Of a stretch of DNA of 64,000 nucleotides, positions 31,119-60,504 are shown piece by piece. Position numbers and translations under genes: made by a program. The DNA lies in NCBI GenBank assembly GCA_944989445.1, contig CALYLW010001207.1:124001-188000 (forward strand), in the 5' to 3' direction. Each line of letters starts with the position of its first letter. Position 1 is the first letter of the stretch. This stretch comes from Ampullaceana balthica. Lineage: Eukaryota > Mollusca > Gastropoda > Lymnaeidae. Under the pieces are notes generated by a model. That model made no database searches, had not been told where the DNA came from, and worked only from the letters and a program-made list of their open reading frames with translations.

Positions 31119-31483
31119 GCACAGCCAAGTCTGAAATCGATCGCCCACCAATGACCCCAGTATATGGTTAAATTGTGGCTAAAAGCATGTTTTATGAATA
31201 GGTAAAGGCGTGTCTGAGGCTACCAGGTCAAGGGAGCTTTACTGCAATGTGAGCGGTTGAGCAAGAATGATCCACACTGGGAACTGCCTCATAGCTACCA
31301 ACCCCCCATAACGTAAATACGATTTTAAGCTTAATCATTTTTCCTAGCTTAATTTTACAATAATTTTTTTTAGTCTACATTCAATAAATCATTTACAAAA
31401 CACAAAATATTTATATTATGTATCTTATTTTAAAAAATAAATTATTATGGGTTCTTCAAAATATAAATTACGATTTTCACATA

Positions 31484-31511
31484 GAGTAATTTACCACCTC
31501 GCGAACGCCAT
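31484..31511. repeat. Left terminal inverted repeat of pogo-like element
   Basis: GAGTAATTTACCACCTCGCG AACGCCAT pairs with the right end; TA precedes it. Confidence 0.9.
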
Positions 31512-31840
31512 ACGCTAAAAATAGCACCATTTTCGGCTTTCATGCCCTAGTTACTAAACCGTTCGACACAAGGTAAAAACGAAAGTACCTACAAGTAGTA
31601 TGACAACAAGGCTACTATAATGACACAGCATTGTTGTATTACAATGCGGGGTTAGAGTGTAAAGTCCAATTTAGCTGACCCAGTTAGCTACCGCCTGCCG
31701 AACACTTTTTTGCTTAATTTACTTCAAAGCAGACACTTTTACCTCAAAGCAGACACAAAACAAAAATCATCAAAGAATCAATTTTTAGTTAATAGAGTCA
31801 ATAAATAACACTGGAGATGTCAATAATAATGTAATAAACG

Positions 31841-31846
31841 TTTATT
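31841..31846 (-). promoter_or_regulatory. Candidate polyadenylation signal of the pogo-like element
   Basis: AATAAA on the minus strand about 75 bases beyond the PHD-frame stop and inside the element's inverted ends. Confidence 0.5.
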
Positions 31847-31920
31847 AAAGAAATTAGATCCCGAATAACTTAGATCTATATATACAAAATAATACTATAA
31901 GTAGATCTATAATCTATAGT

Positions 31921-33137
31921 CTAGTCAGGGCAGCAAACAGTGCACACAAAAGTGCCTTGCTTCAAAGATGCACAATTTTTCGTGCACTGTGCATGCCACC
32001 AGCCATCACACACATCACATTGGACCCAAACCTCTGTCCCTCCCCCTTTTTTGCACCCATGACACATTCCTTCCAACAAGAAATTCTCTTTTTTATCTAA
32101 AGTATCGTCATCTGCAGCGATGTCAAGCTCCATTGTTTGAACCAACTGTGGGTCCTCACTGCTGCTATCAGATAGATCTATTACTGGATACTTCTTTACT
32201 TTCTTGGACTCCACTATTTTCTTTTTTTTAATCTGCTCTTCTTCTCTCTTGCGTCTTTTTTCTTCCCTTTCTTGCTCTATTTTCCTTTTTGTAGCCTCTT
32301 TTTGTGCATCCTTTCTCTTTTTGCTTTCTTCCCTCTCGATCTTTCTTTTCAGTTTATTTTTTTCTATTTCTTCTTTGTCTGTTATTTTCTTTTTTAATGC
32401 TTCTCTAAACTCTTCTCCACTGACCAAGTTTGGCATGGTTGGAGCATTTGATGTTTTCTTCTTGTTTTTATTCCTTCTAACAAAAGCAGGCAGCTTCAAA
32501 ATGTCATCTACTGTCAAGTTAGCTTTGACTGTGCAGTTTTTGGGTTCTTCTAGACTGCACGTTTCTATTAGCCCCACAGCTAAGGCTTGAAACTTGTTAA
32601 ATTTCTCTTCTTCCTCTTTGATAAGGTTGTCTCCTGCAGTACTTGTCATTGTCAGTTGACAAAAAAATTTATTAAATTGGTTGCGACCCATTTCATCATA
32701 TAAAAAGTTTGAATAGTCATGGAGTGCTTTAAGTTGTGCAGCAGACAAATTGGACTTTGGTGGTGGGGATAATGCAGGTAATGATTCTGGTAGGGAAGAT
32801 TTGTCTATGATAGACTTATTTTCATTCTCAAATGGGCTGTTTCCCTGTATAATGGTCTGGGTGATTACGTGTGTTTCATTCACAATCGGTTTTGTCTCAA
32901 TGAGTGCCTGTGTGTAAGATTCGATTGGTTGTGTCTCAATGATTGCTTCGGTGTAAATTTCTATTGGCTGTGTCTCAGTGATTGTTACTGTGTAAGATTC
33001 AATTCGCTGTGTTTCAGTGGTATCTACTGTGTCGGGTTCTATGTGTTGTGCCTCGATGATTGCTTGGGTATCGTTTGAGATTGGCTGGGACTCAATCAAT
33101 TTATTGTCATTTATGGTGTGCTGGTGGTTTTTTTATA
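31921..33137 (-). CDS. Transposon protein C-terminal part with PHD finger
   Basis: The frame is open from the A7 tract (33128-33134) to TAG at 31921-31923. Taking TTG at 33099 as residue 1 gives 392 residues. No ATG opens it, so it was probably joined to the upstream transposase. Residues ~18-85 are imperfect repeats of ETQPIESYT; ~225-310 are K/E/R-rich and likely coiled-coil with nuclear-localisation potential; ~318-345 acidic. The end is a C4HC3 PHD finger with all eight ligands: C346, C349, C361, C364, H369, C372, C386, C389, and the usual aromatic (W367) before the histidine. PHD fingers of this type often read histone H3 tails; that this one does is inference. No damage is visible inside the domain. 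Confidence 0.85.
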
Positions 33138-34396
33138 AAAGGGTCGGCTTTCGTAGGGACTTTATCGCTGTTGGTGGGTTGGGCAACATTATGAATTCCC
33201 AATGGTGTTGAGCCGAATACAGCACTAGGACCAAGCTTCGGGGATTGCAGAATTCTATATGGATCATATGGTAGTATTCCAGCTGCTTTAAAGCTTTGCG
33301 CAGCAATGGAAGGTGTGGTGGCCTTTAGCCATACTGGCTTTAAAACTTTGGCAAAGCTCTCCAGATTTACTCCCTCCCCATGCTCACTTATATGGTGTCG
33401 TATGGCGTCTGACCAAGCTGGTTTGATTGCACCAAAAAAAGCTTGATCGAGAGGCTGAATCAAGTGACTCGCATGCGGCAACAAACAATATAAGACTATA
33501 TGGTTGTCATGACATAGCTGTGATGTCTCAACCAGTGCAGTGTGGCTAATGTGACCGTCTACCAGTAGAACTACAGGCTTCTGTACATGGGCTGTGGCTG
33601 GAATAAAGCTATCTCTTAGCCAAGAATAAAAAATCTGTGCTGTAATCCAGCCATTATCAGACACTTGTAGGAATGCCTCTGGGAAGTGATCTAATAAATT
33701 TTTGGACGGTATTCTCTTGTAGGGGTATATTAACAGGGGACTGAGGAAGTGTCCACTTGCGCTGGCACATGCAAGAAATGTCACTTGTGACTTCACACCT
33801 GCAGTAACATTGTACACATGTTTCGACCCCCTGCATGCGATGACCTTCCTGCTTTTGGCATCAAAAGAAAAGCCTGTTTCGTCTGCATTGTAAATGCGAG
33901 TGGGGTCACTAAGTAGACTGGGGTCAATGCTGTCAACACACCATTTTAAATCATTAAACCACTTTTCAATAGATTTTATTGTAACCAGGGCTCTCTCCTT
34001 TCCTAGTGATTGGGGAGTACGCAGTGTCAATTCAGGATTGCGTTTAAAAAAATTATATAGCCATGATGATGTTGGCATTTCGGTTTTGCTCTTTGAAGTA
34101 CAATTCCTGGTATTTAAGATTTGTTTGGCGATTTGCCTCACCTCATCGCCATTTTTTCCAAAGCCTCGCTTGGCTAGCTCTATTAGCCATTTAGCTAATT
34201 TGACCTCCTCTTCTGGCGTGAGGAGGATCTGTGCATAGGCTATGACAGGCCGCTTGCCTGTAAGTGTGTCGTGAAGAGTGGCAAGTGGAATGCCAAACTC
34301 ATTCGAAGCTTTTCTAATAGAGAGCCGCTTTTCCCTAATACTAGCCAATGCCGCATTAATTACTTCTGGGCTCTGTTTTGTTCGTATGCTAGACAT
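33107..34396 (-). CDS. Pogo/Tigger-like DDE transposase
   Basis: Cut-and-paste transposase of the Tigger/jerky type, 429 residues. Residues ~8-50 form a psq-type helix-turn-helix (INAALASIRE...LATLHDTLTG); ~60-135 a CENP-B-type second DNA-binding region (LTPEEEVKLAKWLIELAKRG); ~165-330 the DDE_1 catalytic core. The acidic triad is present: D172 in YNADETGF, D280 in VLLVDGHISH, D317 in IQPLDQAFFGAIKP, the last two 37 apart as expected. ATG at 34396 is preceded on the minus strand by a TTTCAG acceptor-like tract, so a 5' UTR intron is possible. TGA ends the frame 20 bases after the A7 tract; a shift there leads into the PHD frame. Confidence 0.93.
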   Translation of the reverse strand: MSSIRTKQSPEVINAALASIREKRLSIRKASNEFGIPLATLHDTLTGKRPVIAYAQILLTPEEEVKLAKWLIELAKRGFGKNGDEVRQIAKQILNTRNCTSKSKTEMPTSSWLYNFFKRNPELTLRTPQSLGKERALVTIKSIEKWFNDLKWCVDSIDPSLLSDPTRIYNADETGFSFDAKSRKVIACRGSKHVYNVTAGVKSQVTFLACASASGHFLSPLLIYPYKRIPSKNLLDHFPEAFLQVSDNGWITAQIFYSWLRDSFIPATAHVQKPVVLLVDGHISHTALVETSQLCHDNHIVLYCLLPHASHLIQPLDQAFFGAIKPAWSDAIRHHISEHGEGVNLESFAKVLKPVWLKATTPSIAAQSFKAAGILPYDPYRILQSPKLGPSAVFGSTPLGIHNVAQPTNSDKVPTKADPFIKKPPAHHK

Positions 34397-34499
34397 GGCT
34401 TTAAATCTGAAATATAATTATATTGTAGATTCTATTAAAATTTTCATTCAAATATAAAATAGGAGTCTAGATAGATCTATAGACTAGACCTAGATCTTT

Positions 34500-34998
34500 A
34501 GCTTAATTTTCCTACATGAAAAAGTGTTCGCAACGAAGTAATATCCTACAATAAAACAAATATTTAACTAAATTTTTCTGCAGAATAAAAGTGTTCGGTA
34601 CGAGGTAAAATCCAACGTTAAACTTACTACGTCGCGAACACCCCTTCGAAACGAACATTGATATTAAAAATCATTGTAAAGTATAACAGCGTGGTTACTG
34701 ATCTATTTCTAAGTGATAATGCAATACCAAACAATTGTGTTTACCAAAGCGAACAGGAAAAGTAGTCTTAACCCGGAAATCAACTTCGTTCTTCCTAGGG
34801 ACGCTGACAGCATGCACGGTGCAAGGATCAAAATGTTTACGCACATTTACTCACAAAATAGTGAGTCCCTGCAAAGGAAACGATGAAATGATATTGAAAA
34901 AAGAACTACTTTCGACTTACGGGTGTTCGTTTTCGTGTTAGACGGAAAATAAAAATACAGAGAACGCTTTATGAAATAGTGTTCGCTACGACATAGCG
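34500..34998. promoter_or_regulatory. Subterminal repeats, candidate transposase-binding sites
   Basis: AAAGTGTTCGCAACGAAGTA (34521), AAGTGTTCGGTACGAGGTAA (34589) and AGTGTTCGCTACGACATAGC (34979) are direct repeats; GCCGAACACTTTTTTGC near 31697 is a partial inverse. Repeated subterminal motifs often bind transposase. The open frame at 34735-34941 is not a gene. Confidence 0.55.
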
Positions 34999-35020
34999 TT
35001 CGCGAGGCGGTAACTTACTC
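34994..35020. repeat. Right terminal inverted repeat of pogo-like element
   Basis: TAGCGTTCGCGAGGCGGTAA CTTACTC, followed by TA (35021-35022). Confidence 0.9.
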
Positions 35021-35022
35021 TA

Positions 35023-35396
35023 TATCTTATTTTTTCAATTTTGTAACACTAACTCAGGATAAATACATGAGCACCGTGATTTGTAGTGCGTCATTTACGG
35101 GAAACACAATATCAAAGCACGTCCAAAATGATTAAATTAATTTGTAAACATGACGTGTTCTCTCCATAATTTCCTTATTTCTCCATTTTTGTAGGTAAAG
35201 GATATTTTATTGCACGTGTGTATTTGTATATAGTTATTTGAAAACCATACATTTCATGTTGAACATTTCATGGTTGTATTTTCTTAGAAATTTCACAACA
35301 GTAACAGTTAAAAAGCAAGACTAACAAGAGTTTCTCTTCACATCGATTAAATCTTTCGCCTCTTATTAAAGATTTATCCGAGATTTCGGTGAGACT
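35023..35396. other. AT-rich, nothing recognised
   Basis: Right flank of the pogo-like element. No feature seen. Confidence 0.4.
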
Positions 35397-36182
35397 TTGA
35401 AGTTATACGTGCATTCAGAGGATTCTGCATGTGTGAAGTTTTTCAGCTACATAAGAGTAATGTTTAAAAGAATTACGGTAAAGGGTGTGTCACTTTCAAG
35501 TGCACACCACCCCAACATACTTTCCCTAACAATTTATGGAAAAGAAGTGTATAACATTACGCCACCAGAAATAATAGACTGTTTAATAAAAGAAATAAAA
35601 ATAACATGGAGGGACGTAAAGGCTCTCTACCAATTCGAGAATCCACTCAAGTGGTTCCTCAAACTTGGACCAGAAGCAGAACATAAGCACTTCGAAAACT
35701 TGCACTGCAAAACATTTCAAGTTGGAGTTGCACAGCAAATTAGTTTTGAACATGTGGGCACAGAAAGAAGGAAGGTGATTGTCCACTGGGTCCCCCCAAC
35801 CTTGCCTAAGGAGGGGGTGGAAGAAATGCTCTCGTTTCTGAGCAAGGAAAAAGTAGAGGCACACCCTCATAAAGGTAGACCGGACGGTGGACAGTCCTTT
35901 ACAGACCGGACAATGAAACTTGTGTTCCACACTATATTTACCTAGATTGTGGACAGGTGAAAAATAAGAGAGTGCTGCTCCTGGTTCCTGGCAGAAAAAC
36001 TCAGTTAGCATATGTAAATGCAAATGAAATCTTTGTTCAAAGTTTGAACTCAGATATAAATATAAATTAAAATTTACGAATAAAAATACTTTCTATTGTA
36101 ATATCTGACGTGCATCACATTCTATTTTCTATGAACCCCGCACAAAAAGGCATTGCTATCGACCTACTGAATATGAGGTTGT
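35397..36182 (+). pseudogene. Gag/ORF1-like retroelement protein remnant
   Basis: The open frame 35397-35945 (first ATG 35460) has WRDVKALYQFENPLKWFLKL, then RRKVIVHWVPPTLPKEGVEE. This is the look of RRM-like nucleic-acid-binding domains in retroelement ORF1/gag and ZCCHC3-like proteins. About 35880 the frame shifts: another frame continues with YIYLDCGQVKNKRVLLLVPG past the TAG at 35943. After one more stop it keeps NEIFVQSLNSD and VHHILFSMNPAQKG to a TAA at about 36181. The same C-terminal peptide occurs on the minus strand at 57307-57540 and 59666-59899 (NEIFLQSLNSDVHMKG). No reverse transcriptase is nearby. Family assignment is inference. Confidence 0.55.
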
Positions 36183-55786: not shown

Positions 55787-58145
55787 ACCACTGGGCGCCC
55801 ATCCATTACGTCAGTACTGTTACATTTCCGTATTGGAACTAAGCCCCTGTGACCATTGGACACCCATCCATCACGCCTGTATATTGGCTAGTAGGGATTA
55901 AGGATGGATTATTTATGGTTAGGGATTTAGTAGATGTTCAATTTATTTTAAAGTCCTATTGGCTCTTTATGACAGACTCATTTGACCCACTTTGCTGTTG
56001 GTTACAGTATTATTGTAATTTGTTGTTGGTAACAGTACTATTGTAATTTGTTGTTGGTAACAGTATTATTGTAATTTGTTGTTGGTAAACATTAACAAAA
56101 AATGTTAATACTTTTTTCCCCAAATGGCAGTGAGAGAGAAAATAACGAGAAGTACAAACTGAGGGGGAGGGCTGAACACAGAGAGAACATATTAGAAAAA
56201 AAGGGAGTGGTGAACACAGACAGGTCACAGCAGAAAGAGAGGAACGGGTGAACACAGAGAGGACAGAGTAGAAAGAGATTGAAGGATGAACACAGTGAGA
56301 ACACAGTAGAAAGAGAGGGGATGGTGAACACAGAGATTTCACAGTAAAAAGAGGGGAAGGGTGAACACAGAGAGGACGGTAGAAGGAGAGGGATTGGTAA
56401 TCACAGAGATTTCATAATAGAAAGAGAGGGAGGGATGAACACAGAGAGGACACAGTGAAAAGAGAGTGACATTAAAACGTGGATATTGCTGACGCCCTTT
56501 CGTTGCTGAAGATTATTGCGTATTACGTTCTTGTGAGAACTGCCAACTCTGAGTTTATACCCGCGACTCTCTGTACTCAAGCAGAGCACGATTGCCGCTA
56601 GACAACTGTGTCCCCTTATTTATATATCATAAACACATATAAAGAAAAATTCACAATATATAAGGAGTTGTAACTGATATTTGTTCATACACTTACACTT
56701 CTACATTTATATAATTGTCGTTTATACTATAGACTTAAATTTACAAGAAACTAATTATCGTTTGAATGGTCCAAGGGAGGTAAGGCTACACCATACGCTA
56801 ACCGTTAGTAACTAAGCCATAAAGGACAAATATACTGAAATGCAGATTTGACATTTATATATATAATGAAAAAGATGAACTAGTGACACGAATTGTTTAA
56901 ATAAATCGAACTAAGTCTATACTGGTGGTCGGTAAATACTTGCAATTTATTAAAATGTTTTCCCTTTATTAAAGGAATGGAAGTCAAGTGGATTGCCATT
57001 CGGATAAACATCTTATATGTATACCGTGTAGTAAGTACGTGTCAACAATTACGCATGGCAATGCATGACAGTAAATGTATTAAATATATAGTTTTCTTAA
57101 TTTGAAATAACTAGGATTCTGTTCATATGTTTTTTTCTTTGACATAAATAATTTGATACAGACTATTTAGTTGATTGCAATACAAAGTGTAAGCAATACA
57201 AATTAATAATACAATGTCGCACAGACTTTCTAGTTGCAATTTAATGGAAGTGAAGGTTAATAATATTTCGATCTTCTCATTAATCTTGCCGCTTAAGTTG
57301 TCTCAATTACCACCTCAAATTCAGTAGGTCGATTGTGGTGCCTTTTGGTGCGGTGTTCATAGAAAATAAAATGTGATGCACGTCACATATTACAATAATA
57401 AGTAGTTTAATATGTAAATTTCCCTTCATATGTACATCAGAATTCAAACTTTGAAGAAAGATTTCATTTCCATTTGCATATGCTAAAGGAGTTTGTCTAA
57501 TGTGATATAGAATGTTCAGGCAAAAACTAAAAACAATCAAACAATATCAAACTATTAGACATCATTAACAATCAGACAACTCAAAAAAACCGAGAATCTA
57601 CACTTGCAATAAAAATCTCTCATAGGCAGACGGATAGCAACAACAAATAGGCAAATGTTACATTCAGACAATACTGACACTCAGACATATATTTTATTTT
57701 TGAAATACAAACCGTCAGAAAAATCTAATAGACAGACAACCCTACAAATCATACATAATCTTACATAATGACAGACAACATTAACAATCGATCAACTCTT
57801 ACAAACTGACGGACAACAATAACATTAGTAAATGTAACAGACTGACAAGTCTTACCTACAGACAACTCTTACAAAATTACTGACGCCAATAACCATCAGA
57901 CAACTCTTACAGACAGACAATGAGGACAGACAACACTAACTTATCCATTGGTTTCTGACATGAAACCCAGAATTGATAACAATGGTAAAATTGACTTTGG
58001 ACGATGTATACGCTTAACAATTTGCTTATTTCCTTTGATATAGAAATCGTGTGAATCCAGAAGAAAGGTCTAATATGGGGGAGCAGCCATTACCATTTCT
58101 AAAAGTTTTATTTGTGTTGCTTTTTTAATAATAATTTTTTTTTAC
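55787..58145. repeat. 2,359 bp tandem duplication, copy A
   Basis: Bounded by ACCAC (55787-55791 and 58146-58150). Contains the end of element Q, a 28 bp repeat of three units (~55995-56090, GTTGTTGGTAACAGTATTAT), a GAACACAGAGAGGACA-type ~36 bp array (56170-56470), family P (56960-57500) and the AACAATCAGACAACTC repeats (57540-57930). Small frames within it are identical in copy B and are repeat-derived. No gene recognised. Confidence 0.95.
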
Positions 58146-60504
58146 ACCACTGGGCGCCCATCCATTACGTCAGTACTGTTACATTTCCGTATTGGAACTA
58201 AGCCCCTGTGACCATTGGACACCCATCCATCACGCCTGTATATTGGCTAGTAGGGATTAAGGATGGATTATTTATGGTTAGGGATTTAGTAGATGTTCAA
58301 TTTATTTTAAAGTCCTATTGGCTCTTTATGACAGACTCATTTGACCCACTTTGCTGTTGGTTACAGTATTATTGTAATTTGTTGTTGGTAACAGTACTAT
58401 TGTAATTTGTTGTTGGTAACAGTATTATTGTAATTTGTTGTTGGTAAACATTAACAAAAAATGTTAATACTTTTTTCCCCAAATGGCAGTGAGAGAGAAA
58501 ATAACGAGAAGTACAAACTGAGGGGGAGGGCTGAACACAGAGAGAACATATTAGAAAAAAAGGGAGTGGTGAACACAGACAGGTCACAGCAGAAAGAGAG
58601 GAACGGGTGAACACAGAGAGGACAGAGTAGAAAGAGATTGAAGGATGAACACAGTGAGAACACAGTAGAAAGAGAGGGGATGGTGAACACAGAGATTTCA
58701 CAGTAAAAAGAGGGGAAGGGTGAACACAGAGAGGACGGTAGAAGGAGAGGGATTGGTAATCACAGAGATTTCATAATAGAAAGAGAGGGAGGGATGAACA
58801 CAGAGAGGACACAGTGAAAAGAGAGTGACATTAAAACGTGGATATTGCTGACGCCCTTTCGTTGCTGAAGATTATTGCGTATTACGTTCTTGTGAGAACT
58901 GCCAACTCTGAGTTTATACCCGCGACTCTCTGTACTCAAGCAGAGCACGATTGCCGCTAGACAACTGTGTCCCCTTATTTATATATCATAAACACATATA
59001 AAGAAAAATTCACAATATATAAGGAGTTGTAACTGATATTTGTTCATACACTTACACTTCTACATTTATATAATTGTCGTTTATACTATAGACTTAAATT
59101 TACAAGAAACTAATTATCGTTTGAATGGTCCAAGGGAGGTAAGGCTACACCATACGCTAACCGTTAGTAACTAAGCCATAAAGGACAAATATACTGAAAT
59201 GCAGATTTGACATTTATATATATAATGAAAAAGATGAACTAGTGACACGAATTGTTTAAATAAATCGAACTAAGTCTATACTGGTGGTCGGTAAATACTT
59301 GCAATTTATTAAAATGTTTTCCCTTTATTAAAGGAATGGAAGTCAAGTGGATTGCCATTCGGATAAACATCTTATATGTATACCGTGTAGTAAGTACGTG
59401 TCAACAATTACGCATGGCAATGCATGACAGTAAATGTATTAAATATATAGTTTTCTTAATTTGAAATAACTAGGATTCTGTTCATATGTTTTTTTCTTTG
59501 ACATAAATAATTTGATACAGACTATTTAGTTGATTGCAATACAAAGTGTAAGCAATACAAATTAATAATACAATGTCGCACAGACTTTCTAGTTGCAATT
59601 TAATGGAAGTGAAGGTTAATAATATTTCGATCTTCTCATTAATCTTGCCGCTTAAGTTGTCTCAATTACCACCTCAAATTCAGTAGGTCGATTGTGGTGC
59701 CTTTTGGTGCGGTGTTCATAGAAAATAAAATGTGATGCACGTCACATATTACAATAATAAGTAGTTTAATATGTAAATTTCCCTTCATATGTACATCAGA
59801 ATTCAAACTTTGAAGAAAGATTTCATTTCCATTTGCATATGCTAAAGGAGTTTGTCTAATGTGATATAGAATGTTCAGGCAAAAACTAAAAACAATCAAA
59901 CAATATCAAACTATTAGACATCATTAACAATCAGACAACTCAAAAAAACCGAGAATCTACACTTGCAATAAAAATCTCTCATAGGCAGACGGATAGCAAC
60001 AACAAATAGGCAAATGTTACATTCAGACAATACTGACACTCAGACATATATTTTATTTTTGAAATACAAACCGTCAGAAAAATCTAATAGACAGACAACC
60101 CTACAAATCATACATAATCTTACATAATGACAGACAACATTAACAATCGATCAACTCTTACAAACTGACGGACAACAATAACATTAGTAAATGTAACAGA
60201 CTGACAAGTCTTACCTACAGACAACTCTTACAAAATTACTGACGCCAATAACCATCAGACAACTCTTACAGACAGACAATGAGGACAGACAACACTAACT
60301 TATCCATTGGTTTCTGACATGAAACCCAGAATTGATAACAATGGTAAAATTGACTTTGGACGATGTATACGCTTAACAATTTGCTTATTTCCTTTGATAT
60401 AGAAATCGTGTGAATCCAGAAGAAAGGTCTAATATGGGGGAGCAGCCATTACCATTTCTAAAAGTTTTATTTGTGTTGCTTTTTTAATAATAATTTTTTT
60501 TTAC
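58146..60504. repeat. 2,359 bp tandem duplication, copy B
   Basis: Same content and order as copy A at +2,359; no difference found in the stretches I compared. Ends at ACCAC (60505-60509) and then unrelated sequence. Confidence 0.95.

Follow-up and report, generated by a model that had tools for sequence, protein, structure and literature searches.

The 64,000-nucleotide stretch of the genome of the lymnaeid snail Ampullaceana balthica analyzed here (assembly GCA_944989445.1, contig CALYLW010001207.1, positions 124,001 to 188,000; hereafter, the window) contains a transposable element of the pogo superfamily whose transposase terminates in a PHD finger. The element extends from TA to TA at 31482–35022 (3541 bp), carries all of its coding sequence on the minus strand, and shares its ends with 36 further end-to-end copies in the same genome. 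Inverted-arm comparison and a pattern scan place the left terminal inverted repeat, on the side of the 3′ end of the gene, at 31481–31511 (plus strand) and the right terminal inverted repeat at 34993–35023 (minus strand). The two 31-nt arms are 90% complementary, and a 26-base end pattern, scanned with up to three mismatches allowed, matches only the two element ends in the entire window and nothing in 100 shuffles of the window. TA is present on both sides of the window element and at the start and finish of all 37 end-to-end copies, bearing out the inverted ends with TA duplications claimed in an earlier sequence-only reading of this stretch.

The non-coding termini also contain repeats of a motif that resembles the inverted-repeat core. 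Five copies constitute a left array at 31491–31756 (31491(+), 31559(−), 31688(+), 31719(+), and 31739(+)), and five constitute a right array at 34524–35013 (34524(−), 34591(−), 34624(+), 34979(−), and 34996(−)). These 10 sites have at least 12 of 17 matches, compared to a shuffle mean of 0.19. Because these very sites had supplied the first consensus, the scan was redone with the end sequence alone as the query and with the end cores excluded; five inner sites with at least 12 of 16 matches were recovered, distributed over both termini (mean 0.01, maximum 1, in 300 shuffles). The repeated motifs are likely binding sites of the transposase.

The transposase frame of the window copy runs on the minus strand from an ATG at 34396 to a premature stop that ends at 33107. 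It encodes two N-terminal helix-turn-helix (HTH) DNA-binding domains, HTH_psq (34265–34369; Pfam E value 1.9e-8) and the CENP-B-type HTH_Tnp_Tc5 (34022–34219; 3.1e-6), followed by a DDE_1 catalytic domain (33383–33787; 2e-19), and all three exceed the Pfam cut-offs. The catalytic aspartates, D172 (33881–33883, just upstream of the DDE_1 match), D280 (33557–33559), and D317 (33446–33448), are exactly those named in the sequence-only reading and have DD36D spacing. A second frame on the same strand, 33132–31921, terminates in C-x2-C-x11-C-x2-C-x4-H-x2-C-x13-C-x2-C, a C4HC3 finger (31930–32064) with its eight ligands in the order and with the spacing of PHD fingers, as had been proposed, and with two tryptophans at what we take to be the methyl-lysine pocket positions. 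Two further elements of structure are predicted between the DDE domain and the finger, both by reference to the model of a relative, P0006. A small conserved helical domain (32557–32745) matches, by sequence similarity, helices 566–622 of this model (predicted local distance difference test score (pLDDT) in blocks of 75–91) and has no Pfam family listed at E ≤ 1 in the scan of the window frame. A lysine/glutamate-rich stretch (32190–32425, limits approximate) matches model helix 665–739 and is predicted to form a single long helix. The P0006 model also matches the Mos1 transposase (E 2.6e-8), a fold match that supports membership of the wider Tc1/mariner group only. A 39-bp tandem repeat at 32893–33065, in the linker between transposase and finger, encodes repeated TETQPIES-like peptide units.

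The two window frames, 34396–33107 and 33132–31921, are parted by one extra A in a run of seven A residues at 33128–33134 (minus strand), where the two frames meet. A search of the same genome returned 108 matching stretches, eight of which list an 831-codon open frame (six of them without a stop inside the match), and a search with the left end returned 307 candidates, with 40 left ends scored. Forty copies were taken, comprising the 20 best matching stretches after the window and 20 of 22 further places. Both ends are reached in 36 of these copies (37 with the window); L029, L036, L039, and L046 each lack one end. Among the 37 end-to-end copies, the A run has the in-frame length of six in 29, a length of seven in three, including the window, and a length of five in one, and is unreadable in four. 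Six of the 37 (L014, L018, L019, L020, L022, and L024) have an unbroken 824-residue frame that continues through the finger, and L029 has an 826-residue frame with the finger but is missing one element end. The two frames are therefore one gene, not the separate units of the sequence-only reading, and the fused protein is its normal form, with the order HTH_psq, Tc5-type HTH, DDE domain with DD36D, small helical domain, long basic helix, and C-terminal PHD finger. Because most copies keep the in-frame length, the frameshift of the window copy is either a common form of decay by slippage in an A run or an error of the assembly; with this one-base frameshift, the window copy as read is unable to make the fused protein. 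Programmed frameshifting between the frames was also considered and is unsupported, as the 33 readable runs (29 in frame, three of seven, and one of five) have the pattern of slippage.

In 28 of the 37 end-to-end copies, all eight ligands of the finger are readable, and internal losses and gains of more than 100 bp are present in eight and two of the end-to-end copies, respectively. The 400-bp flanks of 21 copies, including the window, are unrelated, the exceptions being matches among the flanks of L020 and L029 and matches within L015. The first 21 copies differ pairwise by 1.15% on average (range 0.14–3.08%), indicating that the element spread recently. Selection tests on 21 copies were uninformative, both for shared changes (26 amino-acid versus 10 silent; ratio of nonsynonymous to synonymous rates, dN/dS, 0.72) and for singletons (124 versus 18; ratio 1.90).

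The finger is not confined to this element. A search with the joined protein returned 43 relatives, the named sources being Physella, Biomphalaria, Aplysia, Plakobranchus, Batillaria, Haliotis, Dreissena, and two insects. Of the 43, 15 have an entire cross-brace finger at the C terminus, ending 0–8 residues from the protein end, and the named sources of complete fingers are Aplysia, Biomphalaria, Dreissena, and Haliotis. Two of the 15, P0006 and P0007, are nearly identical to each other and have the same layout as the window protein, with 43–44% identity over 99% of its length. In two others of the 15, P0037 and P0044, the His ligand of the finger is replaced by Cys. Partial fingers, judged by eye, are present in P0011, P0013, P0015, and P0018, and the remaining 24 relatives, several of which are broken or truncated copies, have no finger. 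The predicted proteins of P0011, P0013, and P0018 end near the same point in the finger, just before W-x2-C, a shared stop that may reflect an intron inside the finger in some relatives. Aligned finger-bearing relatives served as the query of a second search, which returned 769 proteins, of which the best 120 were examined; 117 of these were new, and 101 of the 117 have the finger, a proportion that is biased upward because a query built solely from proteins with the finger favors others of that kind. Among the matches listed, complete fingers occur in proteins from Photinus, Zophobas, Aromia, Anthonomus, and Plutella, and a Diabrotica protein has a finger without the His ligand. The snail genome itself contains five distant pogo relatives with 29–33% identity; of the two examined, L051 has the finger in frame, whereas in L052 it lies immediately downstream in a different frame. 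Relatives were also sought in viral contigs, where none was confirmed, and phage records searched at the DNA level contained no match.

None of the eight ligands varies across 23 aligned rows, the window among them, that were selected as finger-bearing. Across the window protein, the 15 relatives of the first search, and the 101 of the second (also 117 in number), finger identity correlates with DDE identity (r = 0.88, equaled in none of 999 permutations), which indicates that the finger travelled with its transposase over the visible range; the correlation falls to 0.39 below 50% DDE identity and to 0.08 below 35%. The catalytic triad is altered in eight of 41 aligned relatives and a ninth lacks the region, so some relatives are not working copies.

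Given the window sequence alone, the Pfam PHD family (PF00628) matches the finger weakly (E 0.011, 16.1 bits, below the cut-off of 24). Of the domain order that the sequence-only reading had put forward for a Pfam check, HTH_psq, an HTH of the CENP-B (Tc5) type, and DDE_1 stand above their cut-offs, whereas the PHD match does not. Among 18 relatives scanned, PF00628 rises above the cut-off only in P0032 (24.4 bits), and it is carried by four of the 120 rows of the second search. A profile of 17 family fingers matched PHD fingers of solved structure at 2e-10, with TAF3 (2.1e-10) and ALFIN-like (2.7e-10) ranked first, followed by KDM5B, BPTF, KDM5A, and DIDO1. TAF3, ALFIN-like, KDM5B, and BPTF are known readers of methylated histone H3 lysine 4 (H3K4), as the structure entry titles also state for several of them. 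The predicted model of the finger adopts a PHD fold (pLDDT 75.9), and its nearest structures are AL3 with H3K4me2, TAF3 with H3K4me3, and AL1 with H3K4me3; the fingers of BAZ2A/B, ORC1b, and Pygo are likewise among the ranked fold matches. Of the 117 finger-bearing proteins, 106, the window's included, retain the two pocket tryptophans. In profile alignments, the corresponding positions are occupied by W and W in ALFIN-like 3 and by M and W in TAF3. Among the 15 complete-finger relatives of the first search, the pocket tryptophan before the histidine is replaced by K or R in five (P0014, P0027, P0028, P0029, and P0031) and 14 have a finger with a negative net charge; the window finger is itself about neutral (isoelectric point 7.7). 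The finger has the sequence and the predicted fold of H3K4-methyl readers.

Assignment to the pogo superfamily is safe: the element combines a DDE_1-type domain with a DDxD triad, an N-terminal HTH of psq/Tc5 type, and TA with terminal inverted repeats. The pogo part of the "Pogo/Tigger-like" label in the sequence-only reading is thus upheld, whereas the Tigger part is unsettled. The Tigger type is described as having CENP-B_N with Tc5 (PMC7386202). HTH_psq occurs instead in the window protein, for which the Pfam scan listed no CENP-B_N match at E ≤ 1, and CENP-B_N is matched weakly, below the cut-off, in relatives P0041 and P0044. DD36D, a spacing that other families share, falls within the Tigger range of DD29–36D. 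The combination of HTH_psq with HTH_Tnp_Tc5 is the one that marks Fot and Fot-like elements, and in the names of its DNA-binding domains, the element resembles Fot-like more closely than Tigger elements. Almost all Fot-like elements are DD35D, a spacing seen in the distant relatives P0023–P0044 (except P0025, which lacks the region), whereas the window protein and the nearer relatives P0004–P0022 are DD36D. Because DD36D differs from nearly all Fot-like elements, the family within the superfamily is left open.

The element is probably a recently active cut-and-paste transposon of the pogo superfamily with a single 824-residue transposase, the PHD finger of which is a putative H3K4-methyl reader by sequence and predicted fold. 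From what is known of the family, the HTH domains would bind the terminal inverted and subterminal repeats, gathering the ends, and the DDD triad would cut the element out and paste it into TA in A/T-rich DNA. The PHD finger, to judge from its sequence and modeled fold, would bind the K4-methylated tail of H3 and would tether the transposase–DNA complex to active chromatin with H3K4-methylated nucleosomes, so as to bias the location or the chromatin state in which the transposase acts. The 37 insertion sites are A/T-rich TA targets, with a GC content of 0.28 within 50 bp; they are compatible with chromatin guidance and with its absence, and neither support nor exclude it. Promoter-like insertion sites were sought and show no enrichment against a background of window tiles alone (flank GC 0.332 versus 0.337, CpG ratio 0.76 versus 0.90). 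More tentatively, and with somewhat less than an even chance of being correct, an animal pogo lineage that includes at least molluscs and insects may have an H3K4-methyl reader built into the transposase chain, an independently acquired one-protein counterpart of RAG1/RAG2 that would direct insertion or the assembly of the ends to a particular chromatin state. If this is true, the recent copies would represent a natural chromatin-targeted transposase.

Two alternatives would remove the finger from the transposase or the transposase from the mobile elements, and both are scarcely credible. The two separate frames of the window copy and the weak single-sequence PHD score could suggest chance adjacency, either of two unrelated neighboring frames or of a host PHD gene fragment captured only here; the six copies with one 824-residue frame spanning both parts refute it, and P0006, P0007, and more distant relatives share the layout. 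Capture in the window copy only, the result that the earlier reading named as fatal to its proposal, was sought among copies and relatives and not found, the fused frame in both ruling it out. Domestication as a host gene, to which the annotation of some relatives as ordinary genes might point, is refuted for the window locus by the inverted ends, the TA on both sides, the dozens of near-identical copies elsewhere, and the decayed copies alongside them.

The remaining alternatives concern what the finger binds. As in piggyBac, in which a domain with a PHD-like cross-brace fold binds a repeated end motif (PMC8086355), the finger could be a DNA-binding cross-brace domain that recognizes subterminal motifs and helps to assemble the ends, with no histone role. 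In favor of such a role, the end motif repeats in the termini, with about 10 copies in non-coding DNA, and the window finger is near neutral and sits after a lysine-rich helix. The finger of piggyBac is, however, positively charged (PMC8086355), whereas net charge is negative in nearly all of the complete-finger relatives; both pocket tryptophans are widely retained, histone readers lead the profile and fold matches, and two HTH domains are already there for DNA. DNA binding by the finger is improbable. Alternatively, the ligand of the finger may be H3 without modification, a different histone mark, or a partner protein, and the finger may serve to assemble, regulate, or stabilize the transposase instead of choosing targets. 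PHD fingers are diverse, those of BAZ2A/B, ORC1b, and Pygo also rank among the fold matches, the PiggyMac finger binds the H3 tail whether or not K9 is methylated (PMC8086355), and in one-third of the complete-finger relatives K or R substitutes for the pocket tryptophan before the histidine. This alternative is a serious minority possibility, against which stand the solved fingers at the top of the family profile search, TAF3, ALFIN-like, KDM5B, and BPTF.

Two features of the window lie outside the element. A 191-residue frame at 35370–35945 (plus strand) lies beside it, has no Pfam match, and could be part of another mobile element. A 300-base stretch is repeated exactly at 55787–56086 and 58146–58445, with a spacing of 2359 bases, and a 133-residue frame is identical at both places (56010–56411 and 58369–58770); the repeat represents a local duplication or an assembly duplication.

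To our knowledge, how cut-and-paste transposons choose chromatin is largely open. The combination of a conserved reader-like finger on the transposase chain with recent copies and with relatives that lack one or both pocket tryptophans offers a direct test of chromatin-steered insertion. The domain combination is visible to anyone scanning domains, since public databases already contain the proteins, listed under general names; the present analysis adds how a recent element is built, that its finger is conserved, and which class of ligand the finger likely has. Similar to other members of the pogo superfamily, which belongs to the IS630-Tc1-mariner group and has reported transposase lengths of 300–977 residues, the element has a DDxD triad, N-terminal HTH domains, a TA target, terminal inverted repeats of less than 40 bp, a length of 3.5 kb, and a transposase within that size range (PMC7386202); it differs in its C-terminal PHD finger. 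The term "PHD" is absent from the main texts, as searched, of three pogo or Tc1/mariner surveys (PMC7386202, PMC7325037, and PMC9219625), and no description of a PHD finger in a pogo transposase was recognized in searches of open-licence papers.

PHD fingers are already known in other DDE elements, namely RAG2-like, Ginger1, and Rehavkus. Rehavkus is likewise reported to have a PHD finger in the DDE transposase of an animal transposon, but is Mutator-related, with 9-bp target duplications and a minisatellite (PMC6446971). Ginger1-9_HM has a C-terminal PHD finger in a cut-and-paste transposase, but its DDE domain resembles that of Gypsy integrases and the finger is accompanied by a Ulp1 protease domain (PMC2836005). 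In the RAG1L-RAG2L transposons, which are found in molluscs too, a PHD finger also serves a DDE recombinase, and the fingers of RAG2 and sea-urchin RAG2L bind methylated H3K4; there, however, a separate protein with a kelch propeller carries the finger, and the recombinase is of the RAG1/Transib type rather than pogo (PMC7204232 and PMC8355894). The transposases piggyBac and PiggyMac are, as is the window protein, DDE transposases with a cross-brace zinc finger at the C terminus, and piggyBac also has ends with repeated motifs, but they belong to another superfamily, and the finger binds DNA in piggyBac and the H3 tail in PiggyMac (PMC8086355). The fingers of TAF3, ALFIN-like proteins, and BPTF have the same ligand pattern and two pocket positions, but reside in cellular chromatin proteins. 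Beside RAG2, Ginger1, Rehavkus, and piggyBac, the element described here adds a further case of PHD-type fingers serving DDE transposases.

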